From Prochlorothrix hollandica PCC 9006 = CALU 1027 (lineage in GTDB: Bacteria; Cyanobacteriota; Cyanobacteriia; Prochlorotrichales; Prochlorotrichaceae): a stretch of DNA of 38,387 nucleotides. Position 1 is the stretch's first letter, and each line of letters starts with the position of its first letter. Below, piece by piece: positions 2,427 through 17,986 of this stretch. Under the pieces are notes generated by a model. It did no database searches and was not told where the DNA came from. It saw nothing but the letters and a program-made list of their open reading frames with translations. Position numbers and translations under genes: made by a program. The stretch spans positions 120,299 to 158,685 of the forward strand of contig NZ_KB235942.1 in NCBI RefSeq assembly GCF_000332315.1. The letters run 5' to 3'.

Positions 2427-2478
2427 TTCTGATGGGACTTTCTGATGGGACTTTCTGATGGGACTTTCTGATGGGACT
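2427..2478. repeat. 13-bp tandem array, four units, at the cysK stop codon
   Basis: Unit TTCTGATGGGACT is repeated four times without change. The last unit overlaps the first base of the cysK stop triplet (TTA on this strand, 2478-2480). Confidence 0.9.
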
Positions 2479-3413
2479 TATAGATCCTGAAAGAGGGGCG
2501 TGCTGAGGTACCGTTCCCCAAAACTGGGTAAAATAACCACAATTAATTTATCAGCATTCTCTGGACGCTGGCCCACTTGCACCGCTGCCCACAGCGCCGC
2601 CCCACTGGAAATACCCGATAATAGCCCTTCTTCCCGCGCTAGTCGCCGTCCGTAGGCGATCGCATCATCATCGCTCACGGTTACCACTTCATCAATCAAA
2701 TCCTTCCGCAACACCGCCGGGACAAACCCCGCCCCAATGCCCTGGATTTTATGGGGTCCAGGGGATCCTCCCGACAGCACCGGGCTACTGACTGGTTCCA
2801 CAGCGATGGCTTTAAAGCTGGGTTTACGCTGTTTCAGCACCTCCGTAATGCCGGTGATGGTACCGCCGGTGCCCACCCCCGATACCACCATATCCACCAG
2901 GCCATCGGTATCGTTCCAGATTTCCTCAGCGGTGGTCTGGCGATGAATGGCCGGGTTCGCGGGGTTCTGGAACTGTTGCAACATATAGGCATCTTCTAGC
3001 CCTTCCACCAAGCTTTGGGCGCGGCGAATACAGCCCGACATGCCTTCCGGTCCAGGGGTGAGTTCCAGTTCTGCCCCATAGGCCCGCAACATGGCGCGGC
3101 GTTCCAGGCTCATGGTTTCCGGCATGGTCAAAATCAACCGGTAGCCCTTGGCAGCAGCGGCCATGGCGAGGGCAATGCCCGTGTTGCCGGAGGTAGGTTC
3201 GACTAAAACGGTTTTGCCGGGGGTAATTAAGCCCTCTTTCTCAGCGGTTTCGATCATGCTGATGCCAATGCGATCCTTGACCGATGAGGAGGGGTTCATG
3301 CTCTCTAATTTGACCAAAATCTGAGCCACGCAACCCTCGGCCTGGGGGATGCGGTTGAGCTGAACGAGGGGAGTATGGCCAATGAGTTGGGTGACATCTG
3401 TGGCGATGCGCAT
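2478..3413 (-). CDS. cysK: Cysteine synthase A (O-acetylserine sulfhydrylase)
   Basis: A cytosolic PLP enzyme that makes L-cysteine from O-acetylserine and sulfide, the last step of sulfate assimilation. The motifs are in the usual order: [11 protein letters not shown] with the PLP lysine (K46 from the chosen start), the substrate loop TSGNTG (about 74-79), the phosphate-binding GTGGT (about 181-185) and GISSGAA near 267. Length is 311 residues, normal for CysK. I chose the ATG at 3413 ([20 protein letters not shown]) over the frame opening at 3443, because AGGA lies upstream of it and family members start just before the IGxTPL motif. It is monocistronic, and a 13-bp tandem array begins at its stop. 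CysM is a less likely alternative. Confidence 0.93.
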
Positions 3414-3518
3414 GGCGGGTTCCTGGTAAGGGTGATGGACCAACGATGCCCCCGCAGCGGTATCGTCGTCAACCCTTCTGGGCGGACTGGTGCGGGTGAT
3501 GTTCCTGGGGTCGATCGT

Positions 3519-4394
3519 CTAAGGGCTGGCGGGTTGGCGGGGTTCTGGGGACAGGGCGGGGGGATCGGTGTTTAGGGGGCTGGGATCAGGGGAATCAGTG
3601 TTGGGATCGGCGGGATCGATGCTGGAACCAGCCGTGGAACCAGCGTTGGGATCGGCGGGATCAGCCGTGGGATCAGCCGTGGGATCGATGCTGGGATCAG
3701 CAGGGCTAACGATCGCGTCAGTGTCACCATGGAGGATGCGACCGACCCGGTTGATCATGATGTGGCAGCGATCGGAATTCAAGACAGAACCCGATTCTCC
3801 CCCCACCCCGGCATCCCCCTCCAGGATCCCCGGATCTGAGCTAACCAGTTCCTGCTTCGCACAGGTGTAGGCTCCCAGGAATTCCCCCCGCAAGTTAAAG
3901 ACGCGGGTGTTGTACCCGGCGCGGCTGGCTTCGCCCCCAAAGGCTTGGATAAATTCATAGCGGTTGAAGTAGTCCATGATGCTCCAGCGCTGGAGGTTGA
4001 CCACCAGATCGACTCGACCTTGGCGATCGTCCTGGGGCAAATAGGTCAGCCAGGTGCTGACCAGCTTTTTATATTGGGAGGACTGGGCTTCAAATTGCTC
4101 CTGCATCCACCAGAGGCTGGGGGGGGTGAGGCCGTTTTGACAGATGGTTTCTGGGGTCAGGATCAGGTTGCTGGCCAGTTGGAGGGCGCTGTCGGGACAG
4201 GTGGCCACTTTGCGGTTGGGATCCTGAATAAAGTTGAGGTTGAGGGGGGAAAGGTTGGGTCCGGGAATGGCAGGAACTGGATCGGGTTCGGCTATCTCCG
4301 GGGCGATCGTCGGGGACTGGGCCAGACTGGCTAGGGGGACCATCAGGAGGGTTGCCAAGGCCAAGGGCAGCAAGGACAGGGAGCGATGAACCAT
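3519..4394 (-). CDS. Secreted hypothetical protein with D/P-rich C-terminal tail
   Basis: A 291-residue protein with a clear signal peptide (hydrophobic core LLPLALATLLMVPLASLA, probable cleavage near residue 25 before QS). It should therefore be exported to the periplasm or beyond. The central part (about 50-215) is folded-looking, with several cysteines, and contains WWMQEQFEAQSSQY and LVVNLQRWSIMDYFNRYEFIQAFG. From about residue 230 to the end it is low-complexity and repetitive in DP, ADP and TD motifs (SIDPTADPTADPADP), and probably disordered. I do not recognise the family. The gap of 105 bp to cysK and the shared strand allow, but do not prove, co-transcription. Confidence 0.75.
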   Translation of the reverse strand: MVHRSLSLLPLALATLLMVPLASLAQSPTIAPEIAEPDPVPAIPGPNLSPLNLNFIQDPNRKVATCPDSALQLASNLILTPETICQNGLTPPSLWWMQEQFEAQSSQYKKLVSTWLTYLPQDDRQGRVDLVVNLQRWSIMDYFNRYEFIQAFGGEASRAGYNTRVFNLRGEFLGAYTCAKQELVSSDPGILEGDAGVGGESGSVLNSDRCHIMINRVGRILHGDTDAIVSPADPSIDPTADPTADPADPNAGSTAGSSIDPADPNTDSPDPSPLNTDPPALSPEPRQPASP

Positions 4395-4806
4395 GGTGCA
4401 GGGGGGGCAGAGGGGGGGTTAAGGGCAGTTGAAGTCTGGGGGAGGGTATTTGTTCCGGGTTGTAATTCTAGATTATGGTTCTGGGTTGCGATTCTGGGCT
4501 GTAATTCTAGGGTATGGTTCTGGGTTGCGATTCCAGGAACCGATCGGGGGGCTGAACTTTAAGCTAATGCTCCATAAAACTGACGTTAGATAAAACTAAG
4601 GCTAAGGAGACTAGGAAAACGAAACTGAGTTAGTCAGGACTGAAGTCCTCACTACGAACTGATTGCGCTGGGTGTCGATGGGTTTGCTGGGTTAGTCTGG
4701 GTTACTGATATCAGACTAAGGCTACGCAAAACCTAAGGCTACACAAAATCTAAGGCTACACAAAACCTCAAGCTATACAAAACTTCAGGCTATACAAAAC
4801 CTCAGG
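4395..4806. other. Intergenic region between pAgo and the secreted protein gene
   Basis: No gene. It holds two copies of a 39-bp unit starting GTAATTCTAG (4462 and 4501), a short GGACTGAAGTCC palindromic motif near 4638 related to the 11.7-kb repeats, and a 17-bp tandem array running into the Argonaute stop codon. Confidence 0.6.
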
Positions 4807-4817
4807 CTATACAAAGT
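4718..4817. repeat. 17-bp tandem array, about six units, spanning the Argonaute stop codon
   Basis: Units such as AAGGCTACGCAAAACCT and CAGGCTATACAAAACCT repeat from 4718. The last unit (4803 onward) contains the Argonaute stop codon (CTA on this strand, 4807-4809) and its final codons. The array therefore looks as if it grew outward from the gene end. Confidence 0.9.
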
Positions 4818-7035
4818 ATAGGCAGTGTTCCCGCTGCACATCGGGGGGTAGGAGACCCTGGAGGGTGACCTCGGCGATGCGATCGGCGTAGTAGGTGGTA
4901 ATGGGTAGGCGAATGGTTTGACTGCTGCCCCCATGGATTTTGCTGAGCCAATAGACCTGTTCCGCCAGCACCAGGAGATCAGTATCACCCTGGCGGCGAC
5001 GGATGAGGAGGGGCTTAGGGGAAGCATGGCGGCTAATTTTGGTTTCGTTTTTTCCTGTGGTCAAAACAATGGCTTCCTGGGGGCTATGTTCCCAGCCCCA
5101 ACCCCGATGGGGATTGTCCCAGGTCGTCGTGCCGTTCTTTTCAACCCTCTGCGCCGCCCGCACTAGATGCTGTTTGACCACCTCCACCAGATCCAGGCGT
5201 TGGAGACCCTGAGTCCGCAGTTCTGCTTCTAGGGCTTTGAGGGTGGCCAGTTCCCTAGTCTTGAAAGTGCCATCACGGTGAATCACCAAGTGTTCTAGGG
5301 GATTGCCGGTTCTTAGCTCAAATTCCTGGAATAAGCCCCGGAGGATTTGGCGTAAACTGTCATCACTAAAGGTTTCCCCCGTTTGCAAGGATACACTCGA
5401 CCAGCCGATGACCTGTCCGTGGGCATCCACCACAAAGGCCGAAGCCCCCACGGTGCGCCCCTCCTTAGTGCCCAAGTCCAAACCGACAAAGGCTTGGGCC
5501 GTTCCGGGCATCGATCGCAACTGCCAGGGCAAATACCCCAATTTGACCAGAATCCCAAAGACGACATTTTGATCTCGCCCTGAGTTTCCCGGCTGGTTCA
5601 TGGTGTCTTGAGTCACCATTTGGGACGGCAATTTAGCCCGGTGCAACTGGCGCTTGAAGGTTTTGTAGGGATCAATGTGGGGGTTGTAGCTACGATCGCG
5701 GCTATCGGGCACAAAGGCAAAAACCAACTGGCAAGCATCGGGCAAACCTTGGCAAACCCGCTGTAAACCCATGGCATCCTGGGGATTATAAGCCCTAGAC
5801 TCTCCCGCTGGGCTTAAGTCAATGCCAAACTTCAAAAAGGTCTCCCTTAACTTCTGCATATAGCGCTTCATACGCGGTTCCCAGGCTTCGGGGTAGAGCA
5901 CTTGAGTCCGAATGCGATCGGGTTTCTGCAATAGGTGCTGGTCGTTCCATCCTTGCCAGGGTTCTGCATAATACCGGTGCTGAGGGTTGGTTGCGCAATC
6001 TACGCCAAAGTCTAAGTTGCGCTGGCGATCGCCCTGGACAAAGGTGGTTAGGCGGGGGGGGTGGCGCAGGCTGGGTTCAAAGTAGAGGCGATCGCCGCAG
6101 TAAAACCCTTTAGCATTGACTGCGGCGATGGCTTTTTGGGCCTTTTCAATTTTTTGCGTCAGGGAACAGATGAGAGTATCGAGGGTTTTCTTGTTAAGGT
6201 CACTGCGATCGTACAGGGGTTGGAGCAGTTGGGGTAAGTGTAAAATTTCCTTGGTTTGGTTAAAGTAGCGGATTTTTACCGCTCGTTGCTGGGGATCTAG
6301 GCGATCGGGGTTAATATTCTTCAGGTAGCCCTTTTCCTGGTGATAGTCTAACAGACTCCGGTTCCCCAGTTCTGCTACCCGCTCGCCAATGGTGATGTCT
6401 GCCATTCCCACCCACTCGCAGCCTTTATGGTCATAGGTTTGACTCAGGCGATGACGGGGCTTGAGGTTCCCTAAGCCCCATCGATCCAAGGACTGCCGCG
6501 ATCGATATTCATGGGCAAAGTCCATCACTAGAATTAAATGCCCCTCTCGATCGCGGTTAAAATCAAAGGTCATGTAAAGCAGAGCTTCCGCACTGTTATC
6601 TATGATTTTGGGAGGATCTAAAGAATAAATGCGCTTTCGAGCTTCTAAGACATGACTAGACCGCATAGCTTTGAAAATACCGTTGAATTGGTAATTGCAA
6701 AACTTAAACAAGAGGGAACTCCGGATCGGGTCTGCCAGATCGATGGGTTCCGTGTCTAACCGTTCCACCACCGCTTGGGATGCCTGGGAGCGATACCCCC
6801 GCGCCATAGATCCGGCGATCCGGTCCCAGGCTAGATGGGGCGGATAAACTAGGGCTGCCCTGGAGGTGTCGATCTCCAGCCAGTGTTTGAGGTGATATCT
6901 GGCCTGACTCGCCAGTCGTCGCAGATCTTGGATGGGATCCCCGTCGCTGGGGGTTAAGGGGCGCAGGCGATCGCACGACATGGCAACCGCCCCAAGGGGT
7001 TGAGTACTTCTGAAGCTGAGTTCGTAGATGGACAT
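4807..7035 (-). CDS. ago: Long prokaryotic Argonaute with intact catalytic tetrad
   Basis: Predicted guide-directed nuclease of 742 residues, the usual length for long-A pAgos. By position the order is N and L1 (about 1-220), PAZ-like (about 228-280, LLDYHQEKGYL...LPQLLQPLY), L2, MID (about 380-515) and PIWI (about 515-742). The MID 5'-phosphate pocket is visible as Y457, K461, Q472 and K498, in the spacing seen in AfPiwi and TtAgo. The PIWI tetrad is D520 (VGLDLGT), glutamate finger E554 (QTGETF), D588 (HRDG) and D718 (YYADRIAEV), so DEDD. The C-terminus ends LYFV, the hydrophobic end normal for Argonautes. SeAgo and LrAgo are known cyanobacterial long-A proteins using DNA guides against DNA; by inference this one does the same. 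No nuclease, helicase or SIR2/TIR partner adjoins it. The ATG at 7035 lacks an obvious ribosome site; M19 is a possible alternative. Confidence 0.92.
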   Translation of the reverse strand: MSIYELSFRSTQPLGAVAMSCDRLRPLTPSDGDPIQDLRRLASQARYHLKHWLEIDTSRAALVYPPHLAWDRIAGSMARGYRSQASQAVVERLDTEPIDLADPIRSSLLFKFCNYQFNGIFKAMRSSHVLEARKRIYSLDPPKIIDNSAEALLYMTFDFNRDREGHLILVMDFAHEYRSRQSLDRWGLGNLKPRHRLSQTYDHKGCEWVGMADITIGERVAELGNRSLLDYHQEKGYLKNINPDRLDPQQRAVKIRYFNQTKEILHLPQLLQPLYDRSDLNKKTLDTLICSLTQKIEKAQKAIAAVNAKGFYCGDRLYFEPSLRHPPRLTTFVQGDRQRNLDFGVDCATNPQHRYYAEPWQGWNDQHLLQKPDRIRTQVLYPEAWEPRMKRYMQKLRETFLKFGIDLSPAGESRAYNPQDAMGLQRVCQGLPDACQLVFAFVPDSRDRSYNPHIDPYKTFKRQLHRAKLPSQMVTQDTMNQPGNSGRDQNVVFGILVKLGYLPWQLRSMPGTAQAFVGLDLGTKEGRTVGASAFVVDAHGQVIGWSSVSLQTGETFSDDSLRQILRGLFQEFELRTGNPLEHLVIHRDGTFKTRELATLKALEAELRTQGLQRLDLVEVVKQHLVRAAQRVEKNGTTTWDNPHRGWGWEHSPQEAIVLTTGKNETKISRHASPKPLLIRRRQGDTDLLVLAEQVYWLSKIHGGSSQTIRLPITTYYADRIAEVTLQGLLPPDVQREHCLYFV

Positions 7036-7152: not shown

Positions 7153-8961
7153 ATGGGTTCCCCTAGGGCCATACCCGTGTCTACCTCCCATCCCCTATCC
7201 CGTCTGTTGCACTACAGCCGCGCCCATCGGCGCACCACGATCGTTGCCTCCCTCTGTTCCGTCCTCAACAAAATCTTCGACCTGGCTCCCCCCCTCCTCA
7301 TCGGCATGGCCGTGGACGTAGTGGTACAGCAGCAGGATTCCCTCGTCGCTACCTGGGGAATTCCCAGTATTCGGGGACAATTAGCGGTTTTATCTCTGTT
7401 AACCCTGATCGTCTGGGGACTGGAATCCGTCTTTGAGTATGCCTATGACTGCCTCTGGCGCAACCTGGCCCAAACCCTGCAACACGAACTGCGCCTCCAT
7501 GCCTATGGCCACCTCCAAGACCTGGAAATGGGTTTCTTTGAAGACCGCAGCACCGGCAACCTCTTGGCTATCCTCAATGATGATGTCAACCAGTTAGAGC
7601 GATTTCTCGATCGCGGAGCCACAGAAATCCTCCATGTCATCACCACCGTCATCGTCGTGGGGGGCGGCTTTTTCATCTTGGCCCCCGGTGTGGCCTGGAT
7701 GGCCATGTTACCCATGCCCTTTATCCTCTGGGGTTCCTTCGCTTTCCAGGATAAACTCGCGCCCCATTACGCCGAAGTGCGGGAAAAGTCGGGCTTTATT
7801 AATATGCGGCTGGCCAATAACCTTACGGGAATTGCGACCATTAAAAGCTTTGCAGCGGAAGCCTACGAACGCGATCGCGTCAGTGGCGACAGTGAAGCCT
7901 ACCGCCGCAGCAACCGCCGCGCCATCCGCCTCAGCGCTGCCTTTATTCCCCTGATCCGCATTTTCATTTTGGTGGGATTCACCGCTACCCTCTATTTTGG
8001 CGGGGTAGCCGCCGTGGAAGGAACCCTGGCCGTGGGCACCTACAGCGTGTTAGTCTTCATCACCCAGCGCCTCCTCTGGCCCCTGACCCGCCTGGGGGAA
8101 ACCTTGGATCAATACCAGCGGGCCATGGCCTCCACCCGCCGCATTCTCGACCTCCTGGATACCCCCATTGCCATCCGTCCCGGCACCACGCCCCTGATTC
8201 CAGCCCAGGTGCAGGGGGCGGTGCGGTTCCAGGATATTACCTTTGCCTACCGCGATCGGGACCCCGTGGTGCAAGCCCTCAGTTTAGAGATTCCCCCTGG
8301 CCAAACCATTGGGGTCGTGGGATCCACGGGTTCCGGCAAAAGTACCCTGGTTAAGCTGTTGTTGCGGTTCTATGAGGTGCAACAGGGGCTGATCACTCTG
8401 GATGGTCAAGATATCCGGGATCTGAATCTGGGGGATCTGCGGCGCTGCATTGGTTGGGTCAGCCAGGATGTGTTTCTGTTCCATGGCACCGTGGCGGAAA
8501 ACATTCGCTATGGCAGCTTTGAGGCCACCGATGCGGCGGTGATGGAGGCGGCTCAACAGGCGGAGGCCCATGATTTTATCCAAGGCTTACCCCAGGGTTA
8601 CGACACCATCGTTGGTGAGCGGGGCCAGAAACTGTCGGGGGGACAGCGGCAACGGTTGGCCATCGCCCGCGCCCTGCTCAAGGATCCCCCGATTTTGATT
8701 TTGGATGAGGCCACCTCCGCCGTAGACAACGAAACCGAAGCGGCAATTCAGCGATCCCTGGAGCATATCACCGTAAACCGCACCACTATCGCCATTGCCC
8801 ATCGTTTATCCACCATTCGCAACGCCGATCGCATCTATGTCATGGAATTTGGTCGCCTGGTGGAACAGGGCACCCATGAGGATCTGCTGGCCCTGGATGG
8901 GGTGTATGCCAGTCTCTGGCGGGTTCAGTCCGGCCTGCGATCGGGGCAACTGGTGCATTAA
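7153..8961 (+). CDS. ABC exporter, fused membrane and ATPase domains (MsbA/MDR type)
   Basis: A 602-residue half-transporter expected to work as a homodimer in the cytoplasmic membrane, exporting lipids or drugs. An N-terminal six-helix ABC membrane domain (about 25-330) includes the [25 protein letters not shown] coupling-helix region. The ATPase domain (about 355-590) has Walker [10 protein letters not shown] (about 390-398), Q-loop region [18 protein letters not shown], signature [16 protein letters not shown] (about 493), Walker [13 protein letters not shown] (about 515-526) and H-loop IAHRLST. All ATPase residues look intact. Substrate cannot be told from sequence. It is divergent from the Argonaute gene and appears monocistronic. 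Confidence 0.92.
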
Positions 8962-9078
8962 ATCCGCCCCCGGCTTGGCTCCCCTCTGGCTAGAAAGGGT
9001 CTGCATCCATCATCCCCCTGGAACCTCCCGAGGCCATGGGCTAGAATTGTGGTGACTGCCCTGCCTGGACGCTGCCCC

Positions 9079-9981
9079 ATGACACCGCTCTCCCCTGTTC
9101 CTGGGGCGATCGCCTCGCCCCGCCGCCGAGACTACCGAGGTCTCCGGCCCGATCTGCCCACCATGTATGACCTTCCTAGCGAGAACCCGGAGGATCCCGG
9201 ATTGCCCGATGAATTCCATGATTTCCAGCCGGAACTGCTGCGGCGCACCTTCCGGCCCCCTGCTTACTGGCCCGATCGTTGCTTTAGTGGCAGTGATTTA
9301 AACATCTATTACGACCTAGACCATCTCAACTGGTACAAACGCCCCGACTGGTTTGGGGTGGTGGATGTGGATTGCTTCTATGGGGGTGATGACCTGCGCC
9401 AAAGTTATGTGCGCTGGCAAGAGGGAGCCGATCCCACGGTGGTGGTGGAACTGTTGTCCCCCGGTACAGAGCCGGAGGATTTGGGCCAAACCCAACGCCG
9501 CCGCCCCCAGCAACCCCCCACCAAATGGGAGGTGTATGAGCAAATTTTGCGGGTGCCCTATTATGTGGTCTTCGATCGGGACAGCCTCACGCTCCAAGCC
9601 TTTGCCCATGATGGTCAACGCTTGCGTCCCCTGACCTTAACGGAGCCTCGCCTGTGGATACCGACCCTGGAGTTGGGGTTGGGTCTGTGGCGGGGGACCT
9701 ATAGCACGGGCAGGGCGAGGGTGTCCGGTCAATGGCTGCGGTGGTACGATGCTCAAGGCCAATGGCTACCCACCGACACCGAAGCCGCCCAACAGGAAGC
9801 CCAATTAGCCCAACAGGAAGCCCAATTAGCCCAACAGGAAGTCCAATTAGCCCAACAGGAAGTCCAATTAGCCCAAGAACGGGCCATGTTTGCTGAAGAA
9901 CGGGCGCGGTTAGCGGAAGACCAGGCAGCGCGGTTAGCGGCCAAACTGCGGGAACTCAACATCGACCCCGATGCCCTGTAA
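9079..9981 (+). CDS. Uma2 family (DUF820) PD-(D/E)XK nuclease-like protein with coiled-coil tail
   Basis: A 300-residue member of the Uma2 restriction-endonuclease-like family, which is greatly expanded in cyanobacteria and has unknown cellular role. The core shows RPDWFGVVDVDC (catalytic-Asp strand), VVVELLSPGTE, then KWEVYEQILRVPYYVVFDR and LRLWIP-type strands ending GLGLWRG. From about residue 237 there are four near-perfect heptads AQQEAQL/AQQEVQL, then AQERAMFAEERARLAEDQAARLAAKLRELNI, forming a long coiled coil. The heptads come from a 21-bp DNA tandem repeat. The ATG at 9079 (MTPLSPVPG) is preferred over a GTG at 9049, because relatives start just upstream of the RRDYRGLRPDLP motif. A remnant of another Uma2 gene lies just downstream. 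Confidence 0.85.
   Translation: MTPLSPVPGAIASPRRRDYRGLRPDLPTMYDLPSENPEDPGLPDEFHDFQPELLRRTFRPPAYWPDRCFSGSDLNIYYDLDHLNWYKRPDWFGVVDVDCFYGGDDLRQSYVRWQEGADPTVVVELLSPGTEPEDLGQTQRRRPQQPPTKWEVYEQILRVPYYVVFDRDSLTLQAFAHDGQRLRPLTLTEPRLWIPTLELGLGLWRGTYSTGRARVSGQWLRWYDAQGQWLPTDTEAAQQEAQLAQQEAQLAQQEVQLAQQEVQLAQERAMFAEERARLAEDQAARLAAKLRELNIDPDAL
9787..9870 (+). repeat. 21-bp in-frame tandem repeat inside the Uma2 gene
   Basis: Four consecutive copies of GCCCAACAGGAAGCCCAATT plus A, with one C/T difference in the last two. Each codes for one heptad (AQQEAQL or AQQEVQL). Copy-number change would lengthen or shorten the coiled coil without shifting frame. Confidence 0.95.
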
Positions 9982-14887: not shown

Positions 14888-17800
14888 TTACTTTTTGCCC
14901 AAGAGCCAATAGCTGACCATCCAGCCTTTGCCCTTCACCCACACAAGTCTCCGTTTTTGGAACCGGTAGCGGTCCTTCAGGCGTTGATAGGTGGTTTCAG
15001 ACACCTGGATCCGATCGGGCTTGCCGGAAGACTCCATGCGGGAGGCCACATTGACCGCATCGCCCCAGAGATCATAGATAAACTTACGAATACCGATGAC
15101 CCCGGCCACCGCCGCCCCCGTGTTGATGCCCATGCGCAACTGGAGACGATCGCCCTGGGGAGTGGGATGGTAGGTCATGGCATCCGCCATGGCCAAGGCC
15201 ATATCGGCAATGGTTTCTGCATGATCAGGCCGATATAGGGGTAACCCCGCCGCCACCATGTATTCGTCCCCCACGGTTTTGATTTTCTCTAAGCCAAAGG
15301 ATTCGGCGAGGGTGTCAAAGTGGGAAAAGACCTGATTCAGCCAATGCACCAGATGTTCGGGACTTACTTCCGCCGAGAAAGCAGTGAAGCCTACGATATC
15401 CGCAAAAAGAATGGTCACGTCCGCGAAAGACTCAGCGATCGCCCGTTGATCTTGCTTGAGTTGGTTGGCAATAGCCTGGGGTAAAATATTGAGTAGTAAG
15501 CGTTCCGACTGGACTTTTTCCTGGTGTAACGCCTGTTCCGCCAATTCCCGCGCCTGGGTCATGGCCAACACATCCCCCACCAACTGCAACACCTGGATAT
15601 CCTTGCTCCGCCAGCCCTGTCGCCCTTGGCTGCGGGCTACCCCCAAAAAGCCCACGGTTTGATCCAGATACACCAGGGGCACCAGGGCCAACGATCGCAA
15701 GTGCAAGCACTGTAACAACAGCCGCCCAGGGTTATCCGTCTCTTCCACCTCATGCCAGTGCCACTGTCGCCCCGTCAGGGACTGGCACCCCTCCCACAGA
15801 TGATCCCAGACCATTCCCGGCAAACTGGGGAACAAATCCGCCACGGGCTGCACCAGGGTCTCCGTGGCCCATTCCCCCCGGATCACCAGGGGGTCGCCGG
15901 GGGATCGTAGCCGCCGGGGGTTCAGGGGTTGAACTTCTAAGGTTTGGGGAACCAGGGCACTGGCTGCCGAGAGTCCCTGAGCCAGGGTCTCGGTGTTGGG
16001 GTTCGTGTCCCAGACCAGGGTAGGCATGGGGGATGGGCCTGGGGGGCGGGAGGCGGGGGCAAAAACCGATAGGGCTGTGGGTACAATGGCCCAAAAGCAG
16101 CGATCGCTGTAGGTCAGTGCCCCCAACTGTTGCAACAGGGACGGCAAAACCCGGTCTAGGGATTGGGTCTGATCCAACAAGCGGCGGGATACTTCCAGCA
16201 AGAGGCGATCGCAGCGGCTGTTGTAATCCCGGCTCGCCTCCAGCTTGCGCCGCTCTGTCACATCCTGCCCCATCCACAGCACCCGCCGCTGTCCTTGCAG
16301 TTCAATAATCTCTGCTGAAAATTCCGCTAAGCAGATCTCGCCCCCTTGCATACGCAGTTCCACCTGCTGCTGGGACAGGGATCCTTGGGTTTGCAAAATT
16401 TGGATATACCGCTCCCGGTCTTGGGGATTGCGCCACAGGCCCAACTGCAAACTCGATTGGTGTTTCAAGTCCTGGGGTTCGTACCCCAGCACCTTGGCAA
16501 AACTCAGGTTGGCTTCCAGAAATTCCCCCGTCTCCAGGGTGCTGATGGCCATGGGCACCGGTGCTTTCCAGAACGCCGTGGCAAATTTCTCCTCCGACTG
16601 CTGTAATTCCGTCGTCCGTTTCAGCACCCGCGCTTCCAGGTCCTGATTGCTGAGGGTCAGGGCCGCGTTGGCGGTTTCAAGGGCGGCGTTAGTGGTTTTC
16701 AGATCAGTGAACGATCGCCGCAGTTGTTGGGCCATCTGATTAAAGGAATGGGTCAAAATCCCCAACTCCCGACTTCCCCCCACTGGTACCAAGGTATCTA
16801 GCTGACCCTGGGATAGGCGGTGGCTGGCTTCACTGAGGTGTTGCACCGGGCGGGACATCCAGCGGGCAATGACCACTCCCCCCCCCACCAATCCGCCCAC
16901 GGCCACCAGGGACAGAATCAGGGTCGATCGCACATTCCCGTAAATATGCTCCATAAAATCCGCTTCCGGCACCGCCACCACCACCAGCCAGTCAATGCCC
17001 CGCACTTGGTTTAGGGGGGTGACCTGGAGAAATTGCCGCTGCCCCGCCAGGGTCACATCATACTGGGCAGAGCTTTGGATCTGGTCCCACGCTCCGAAGC
17101 GCTGGAACAGATAGTTAGCAGACTGGCGAATGAGGGGGGTTTCGCTGGCCCGTGCTGAAACCCGCTGGGCCTTGCTGCCCTCAGCATGGGCATTGAAGAC
17201 AAGATCCTGGGCAGAAGTGGCAATGAGGCTGGCCTGGCGATCGAGGATATACACTTCCCCGGTTTTGCCAATGTCCAGGGTTTCTAAAAAACGGCTAATG
17301 TCCAGCAGGGCCAAGGATACGGCCAAGACTCCCCGAAAGTTACCCTGGGCATCATAGGCGCGTTGGACGGCATCAATGGATAACTGGTTATCGGAACCGA
17401 CCCAGGAATAGACCGGACTCCAGGTGGGATTGGCGGCGGCGATCGCCGCTTGATACCAAGGTCGGGTGCGGGTGTCCACTTTGGGGGAAATCTGGGGCGG
17501 GGTGATCAGCTCTCCCTGGGCATCGGTGGCATATTCATAAAACTGATTCTGGGTGGTGGAGTTGGCAATGCCCACAATGAGCTGGTTATCGATGGAGCGG
17601 CGCTCCACTCCCACAATGTCGCCGTCGGGGGTGCCCAGGTAAATGTAGCTCACTGAGGGGAATTGCTGGCTCTGGTGCCAAAAGTGCCGTTGCATGGACC
17701 CAAAGGAGGTGGTGTCCAGTTGCCCCAAGCTCACCGCATCGGCATTGACTTGATTAATAATCTGGGGCAGGGTCAGATAGTTTTCCAGCCGTTCAAGGGT

Positions 17801-17986
17801 GTGGTGGGTGACTTCGGTGCGCAGTTGGCTGGCGAGGTCGGCTACGGCCCGTTGAGCGGTGCGGAAGGAGAGATAGCCGACGATCGCTTCCACTGCCAGA
17901 ATTTGCACCACAATGGGAACGATCAAAACGGTGCGCAGGGGGAAGCGACCTGTGAACTGGGCAAGGCGGGAGAAGGGGCTTAGCAC
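14888..17986 (-). CDS. Membrane-bound class III adenylate cyclase with dCache, HAMP, PAS and GAF domains
   Basis: A 1032-residue sensor cyclase predicted to make cAMP. Order: TM1 (about 17-40), extracytoplasmic dCache sensor (about 45-340, with VDTRTRPWYQAAI and GEVYILDR), TM2 (about 353-375), HAMP (about 376-430), short coiled coil, PAS (about 465-580), GAF (about 590-815) and cyclase domain (about 850-1025). Catalytic residues are visible: metal aspartates D863 (FADIVGF) and D907 (VGDEYM), adenine-selecting K903 (EKIKTVGD) and D972 (YDLWGDAV), and transition-state N979 and R983 (NVASRM). The K/D pair points to ATP rather than GTP as substrate. Monocistronic; a TTG or later start is not excluded, but the ATG gives a sensible N-terminus. 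Confidence 0.92.
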   Translation of the reverse strand: MLSPFSRLAQFTGRFPLRTVLIVPIVVQILAVEAIVGYLSFRTAQRAVADLASQLRTEVTHHTLERLENYLTLPQIINQVNADAVSLGQLDTTSFGSMQRHFWHQSQQFPSVSYIYLGTPDGDIVGVERRSIDNQLIVGIANSTTQNQFYEYATDAQGELITPPQISPKVDTRTRPWYQAAIAAANPTWSPVYSWVGSDNQLSIDAVQRAYDAQGNFRGVLAVSLALLDISRFLETLDIGKTGEVYILDRQASLIATSAQDLVFNAHAEGSKAQRVSARASETPLIRQSANYLFQRFGAWDQIQSSAQYDVTLAGQRQFLQVTPLNQVRGIDWLVVVAVPEADFMEHIYGNVRSTLILSLVAVGGLVGGGVVIARWMSRPVQHLSEASHRLSQGQLDTLVPVGGSRELGILTHSFNQMAQQLRRSFTDLKTTNAALETANAALTLSNQDLEARVLKRTTELQQSEEKFATAFWKAPVPMAISTLETGEFLEANLSFAKVLGYEPQDLKHQSSLQLGLWRNPQDRERYIQILQTQGSLSQQQVELRMQGGEICLAEFSAEIIELQGQRRVLWMGQDVTERRKLEASRDYNSRCDRLLLEVSRRLLDQTQSLDRVLPSLLQQLGALTYSDRCFWAIVPTALSVFAPASRPPGPSPMPTLVWDTNPNTETLAQGLSAASALVPQTLEVQPLNPRRLRSPGDPLVIRGEWATETLVQPVADLFPSLPGMVWDHLWEGCQSLTGRQWHWHEVEETDNPGRLLLQCLHLRSLALVPLVYLDQTVGFLGVARSQGRQGWRSKDIQVLQLVGDVLAMTQARELAEQALHQEKVQSERLLLNILPQAIANQLKQDQRAIAESFADVTILFADIVGFTAFSAEVSPEHLVHWLNQVFSHFDTLAESFGLEKIKTVGDEYMVAAGLPLYRPDHAETIADMALAMADAMTYHPTPQGDRLQLRMGINTGAAVAGVIGIRKFIYDLWGDAVNVASRMESSGKPDRIQVSETTYQRLKDRYRFQKRRLVWVKGKGWMVSYWLLGKK

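Follow-up and report, generated by a model that had tools for sequence, protein, structure and literature searches.

A complete long-A Argonaute of Prochlorothrix hollandica in an apparently new branch of cyanobacterial Argonautes

Among cyanobacteria, 20 of the 160 long-A Argonaute homologues covered by a published survey look active, and every predicted active prokaryotic Argonaute (pAgo) in its tree clusters with TtAgo (PMC10653904). For the filamentous cyanobacteria, the active pAgos of that survey are two metagenome sequences, which were excluded from the tree (PMC10653904). Here, we analyzed an Argonaute gene of Prochlorothrix hollandica PCC 9006 = CALU 1027, located in a window of 38,387 nucleotides (contig NZ_KB235942.1, positions 120,299 to 158,685 of the forward strand; the positions below are those of the window), and compared its product with the described systems.

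The Prochlorothrix Argonaute shares the YKQK guide pocket, the DEDD catalytic centre and the full domain set with CbAgo and CpAgo, its top PDB matches by both sequence (CpAgo, 4e-32) and structure; however, its identity to them in the MID-PIWI half is about 31-33%, and they belong to another clade in the trees. The haloarchaeal APAP-type pAgos have 34-38% MID-PIWI identity (35.0% for NpAgo), a pocket that also starts with YK and a DEDD centre, whereas many of them have a longer N-terminus and several are encoded beside a PLD gene. The NpAgo-type proteins differ further by a glycine in the column of K498, the last lysine of the MID pocket (L025, L030, L042 and L045), and the Prochlorothrix genome lacks their PLD partner AgaP. 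NpAgo is reportedly functional notwithstanding that glycine. The Prochlorothrix protein is not an APAP member, as this type combines an AgaP partner with an Argonaute of the haloarchaeal clade.

The SeAgo/TtAgo clade has in common with the Prochlorothrix Argonaute a full PAZ domain with a TtAgo-like R3 helix and the DEDD centre; TtAgo is likewise encoded by a stand-alone gene, and SeAgo has a cyanobacterial host. Nevertheless, the MID-PIWI identity to TtAgo and to L008, which was identified as the SeAgo candidate, is 26-28%, and the pocket starts with KR in SeAgo-type proteins and RK in TtAgo, in contrast to YK in Prochlorothrix. CtAgo (PDB 9iad) is also cyanobacterial, with a DEDD centre and the long Argonaute fold (Z 31.8), but it is 28.5% identical to the Prochlorothrix protein, and its subgroup of cyanobacterial Argonautes has a YY pocket and a PAZ alignment without the residues that match R3. 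The published MID-PIWI identities to TtAgo are 25.8% for LrAgo and 35.7% for SeAgo (PMC10269773); here, they were 25.8% for the CtAgo-type L016 and L018 and 37.5% for the SeAgo candidate. Because L016 and L018 have the same identity as that reported for LrAgo, LrAgo probably sits in the CtAgo-type clade, a placement based on the published figure. L028 (MT835890.1), a phage-labelled contig from human faeces, also encodes (2951-5185) an Argonaute of the CbAgo type that is full-length, has the YKQK and DEDD residues and shares about 60% MID-PIWI identity with CpAgo.

The Argonaute gene occupies 4807-7035 on the minus strand, exactly the open reading frame delimited by the initial annotation. It begins with an ATG at the 7035 end, ends with codons for LYFV and a stop codon at 4807-4809, and encodes a long-A Argonaute of 742 aa, as supported by the translation, Pfam, the AlphaFold model and its superposition on CbAgo. 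As the N-terminus is collinear with those of the relatives, the annotated start is correct. Pfam matched Piwi (residues 453-724; 3.2e-18) and PAZ_3 (8.8e-6), the latter with 26.6 bits, 0.4 bit below the cut-off of 27. The protein matched 23 PADLOC families, almost all of them pAgo models, with E-values down to 7e-98. Taken together, these matches lie well outside what chance would give. No other gene of the 5.65 Mb Prochlorothrix genome (13 contigs) encodes a Piwi domain. The gene is real, intact and well defined, and its protein is of an ordinary kind. It is somewhat AT-rich, with a GC content of 53.9% against 57-63% in the adjoining genes. The gene contains three HIP1 octamers, with about two expected, at a density at least equal to the genome background. 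As judged by these octamers, the gene probably did not arrive very recently from a genome devoid of HIP1. Just 3' of the gene, a 17-bp tandem repeat, CTAAGGCTACACAAAAC, is present in about six copies at 4716-4815, and the array overlaps the final codons (4807-4815).

The residue register was established with an alignment of 59 Argonautes. The MID-PIWI half (residues 432-742; 4810-5742, minus strand, as are all features of the gene), which was used for the tree, contains the Pfam Piwi match. The four residues proposed as the 5'-phosphate pattern of the MID domain, Y457 and K461 (5653-5667), Q472 (5620-5622) and K498 (5542-5544), spaced by 4/11/26, fell on the R/K/Q/K columns of TtAgo and the Y/K/Q/K columns of CbAgo, CpAgo and AaAgo, in agreement with the Y/R-K-Q-K pocket of long-A proteins. 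Likewise, D520 (5476-5478), E554 (5374-5376), D588 (5272-5274) and D718 (4882-4884), spaced by 34/34/130, fell on the tetrad columns of TtAgo and form the DEDX tetrad of long-A proteins. The two alanine columns of the catalytically dead CbAgo (PDB 6qzk) coincide exactly with D520, the first, and D588, the second. Q472, D520 and D588 are invariant in group A3. None of the eight residues was shifted in the 59-sequence alignment, a shift being the outcome that the initial annotation had named as refuting it. The C-terminal LYFV (4810-4821) is intact and corresponds to LFFV in TtAgo and to LYFV or LYFI in the nearest relatives. Alignment, Pfam and model therefore agree with the earlier statement that all core parts of a cutting Argonaute are present.

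All eight MID and catalytic residues are kept in the 12 of 12 clade members that cover these columns; the thirteenth, a Hormoscilla fragment of a broken gene, has a glutamate at the D718 column. Close pairs are under purifying selection, with dN/dS of 0.11 for the Limnothrix pair and 0.17 for the Pseudanabaena pair. We consider it very likely that the Prochlorothrix Argonaute is catalytically competent, a prediction made from these residues.

The PAZ domain had been described as short. This was not borne out, as it aligns along the PAZ of TtAgo, including the R3 helix. The PAZ core (residues 197-273; 6217-6447) was delimited by the PF18309 match, and residues 227-236 (6328-6357), SLLDYHQEKG, aligned to SLLDYHASKG of TtAgo. 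The AlphaFold model, built from an alignment of 33 sequences (mean pLDDT 88.3, pTM 0.87), has a helix at residues 228-234, inside this R3 region, which is the mark of a two-subdomain PAZ (PMC6299218). Prochlorothrix therefore has the two-subdomain PAZ, a feature common but not universal in long-A proteins.

In the PDB, the model best matched a CbAgo complex containing guide and target DNA, with 682 residues aligned at an rmsd of 4.9 and Z 39.1; the structural check proposed earlier thus gave a full-length superposition, of residues 1-742 on CbAgo 2-748, with N, PAZ, MID and PIWI in a single chain. CpAgo, KmAgo and TtAgo followed. The closest structures to the model are guide-DNA/target-DNA complexes, and the best matches by structure and sequence, CbAgo, CpAgo and TtAgo, target DNA; together with the canonical YKQK pocket, they speak against RNA as the target, that is, DNA- or RNA-guided RNA silencing. 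We consider RNA silencing very unlikely, although the type of guide and target is not readable from the sequence or the visible residues, a solved structure of KmAgo with an RNA target exists among the fold matches, and RNA is the target of the DNA-guided PliAgo (PMC9360449).

The nearest relatives, with about 50% full-length identity, were found in Limnothrix sp. CACIAM 69d (L003/L039), a second Limnothrix genome (L004) and an Oscillatoriales metagenome-assembled genome (MAG; L031). Relatives at 33-42% came from Paraprochloron, two Pseudanabaena genomes, a Crocosphaera MAG, Chroococcidiopsidaceae, Hormoscilla and a MAG labelled Tatlockia. This type of Argonaute was present in 3 of 386 sampled genomes of the phylum. 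A first scan of genome contigs with the single Argonaute protein as query gave no match, and the scan of viral contigs gave no relative. The Hormoscilla copies (L040, L064 and L075) are broken or remnants, and the reading frames of clade Argonautes are split in L032, L037 and L041, where sequencing error is possible; together, these copies indicate that the function of the Argonaute is dispensable.

In the MID-PIWI tree, 13 members formed one clade (100/100), with the Prochlorothrix Argonaute nested inside (100/99), and the full-length tree recovered the same cyanobacterial clade (100/100). The Prochlorothrix Argonaute fell outside the SeAgo+TtAgo clade, which stood apart in both trees (100/99 for MID-PIWI and 100/100 for full length), as did the CtAgo-type clade (97/90 and 100/100); the haloarchaeal clade of the full-length tree (99/99) also excluded it. 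The earlier long-A designation thus stood, for a full-length protein, which belongs to neither the SeAgo/TtAgo nor the CtAgo-type clade. The full-length tree united three groups, namely the new clade, the haloarchaea and SeAgo+TtAgo (91/91). As sister of the new clade, the haloarchaea had a support of 76/85 and an AU p of 0.198, and SeAgo+TtAgo as a whole had a p of 0.08; either may be the sister group. The AU test rejected a grouping of the new clade with the SeAgo type minus TtAgo (p = 1.4e-4) and weakly rejected a joint clade with CbAgo/CpAgo (p 0.027); union with the CtAgo-type clade gave p 1.4e-4 with the full set versus 0.28 with the reduced set.

Close kinship to SeAgo is excluded by the trees and the AU test, and close kinship to LrAgo is improbable, as the CtAgo-type clade, its probable home, is separate. 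This weakens the appeal made to these two proteins in the initial annotation; DNA-guided DNA cleavage therefore rests on conservation across long-A proteins as a whole and not on near relationship. By this analogy, we regard it as likely that the Prochlorothrix Argonaute cuts DNA with DNA guides. It is quite improbable that the clade is functionally distinct, with another choice of guide or target than SeAgo and LrAgo/CtAgo, or with a loosely linked Uma2 partner. PADLOC scored the other clades at 880-1170 bits with their own models and this clade at 296-342 bits with a generic model. PprPIWI was discarded as a named PADLOC subfamily for the clade, as SeAgo-type proteins and IbAgo score higher with it (621-695 versus 296-342 bits). 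The literature search found no biochemical study of any clade member, and this branch of cyanobacterial Argonautes is apparently new, well separated and uncharacterised.

As had been noted, the genes directly adjoining the Argonaute gene encode no nuclease, helicase or toxin. Upstream and divergent, 117 bp apart, lies an ABC transporter gene (7153-8961, plus strand). Downstream, at 412 bp, a gene on the minus strand (3519-4394) encodes a 291-aa protein that belongs to no known family and whose start resembles a signal peptide, followed by a gene for a PALP-family enzyme (2478-3443). Pfam detected no defence gene among the flanking genes, nor did PADLOC where it was applied. Farther away, a 1032-aa sensor-type protein (14888-17986, minus strand) matches PAS, and its C-terminal part matches adenylate cyclases, weakly also the PADLOC PycC models; it looks like a regulatory cyclase and not a defence protein.

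The sole nuclease-like gene nearby encodes a Uma2 protein (9049-9981, plus strand), 2.0 kb from the Argonaute start. The Argonaute could need a nuclease partner whose gene is unlinked or loosely linked, comparable to NpAgo, which needs the PLD protein AgaP against plasmids, and Uma2, a putative restriction endonuclease, would be the candidate. Haloarchaeal pAgos at a similar distance adjoin PLD nucleases (PMC11442185), and Uma2 lies within 2.1 kb of the Argonaute in Prochlorothrix, L031, L039/L023 and L035; in L031, its frame (9224-9964) begins at the Argonaute stop, abutting it (TAGATG). However, the other clade loci have no Uma2, and its orientation and sequence type vary between loci. Moreover, Uma2 forms an unusually large family in the Prochlorothrix genome, with 107 matches or one per 53 kb (39-63 matches in the relatives), which gives a chance of roughly 10% per locus of a Uma2 gene this near. 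As such proximity is expected by chance at about one in ten loci, Uma2 was not counted as a partner; it was also rejected as a conserved partner, since besides the closest relatives it is shared with L035 alone, and Uma2 genes are dense enough for a coincidence to be plausible. No AgaP homologue was found in the Prochlorothrix genome (best E 0.1) or in the genomes of five relatives, although the same query found AgaP in three of four haloarchaea as a positive control. No PLD gene occurred among the scanned Argonaute neighbours, and the nine PLDc_2 matches in the genome were dismissed as pointing to a partner because the domain is also present in 12 of 14 control genomes. We therefore consider a required nuclease partner unlikely. 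An upstream pair conserved in L031, L039 and L023 was likewise rejected as a partner. It encodes a pterin-binding enzyme of about 321 aa and a pentapeptide/HHH protein of about 733 aa, is not beside the Prochlorothrix Argonaute and was taken as shared local gene order. No neighbour was conserved across the clade loci beyond closely related genomes. Without a clade-wide neighbour or a PLD partner of the haloarchaeal type, the description of the gene as stand-alone is supported.

Our preferred reading, to which we give a good probability, is that the protein is a 5'-phosphate-guided and probably DNA-guided DNA endonuclease that acts alone against multicopy or invading DNA. The 5'-phosphate of the guide would be bound in the MID pocket by Y457, K461, Q472 and K498 with the C-terminal carboxylate and a metal ion, the full two-lobed PAZ would hold the 3' end, and the D520/E554/D588/D718 centre would cut one strand of the complementary target. 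Replicating or broken DNA would most likely be chopped into the short DNAs used as guides, and this origin of the guides would lead to preferential cutting of multicopy and invading DNA. Having no dedicated operon partner, the protein would depend on helicases and nucleases of the host's general machinery.

We somewhat favour action against foreign DNA as the main role. The alternative that an active guided nuclease serves mainly in housekeeping, for example in finishing replication or resolving chromosome ends, with plasmid and phage defence secondary, is possible but less probable. TtAgo reportedly has a housekeeping role of this kind, and the Prochlorothrix gene is a stand-alone gene of chromosomal type with no adjoining defence genes. 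In E. coli, SeAgo and LrAgo load DNA of the replication terminus and ease topoisomerase stress (PMC10269773). On the other hand, the patchy distribution (3 of 386 genomes) and the decayed copies speak against an essential role.

What we describe is a new branch of an ordinary kind of protein and not a new mechanism. The clade is catalytically complete yet lies outside the SeAgo/TtAgo cluster, and it includes two Pseudanabaena and Limnothrix-type genomes. The two metagenomic sequences of the survey may be L031 and L039, which are both metagenomic. Together with the SeAgo/TtAgo cluster and the CtAgo type, this clade brings the catalytically complete Argonautes of cyanobacteria to at least three separate lineages. 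Removal of SeAgo improves transformation (PMC10653904), and the Prochlorothrix Argonaute could serve cyanobacterial genetics as a candidate mesophilic guided nuclease.
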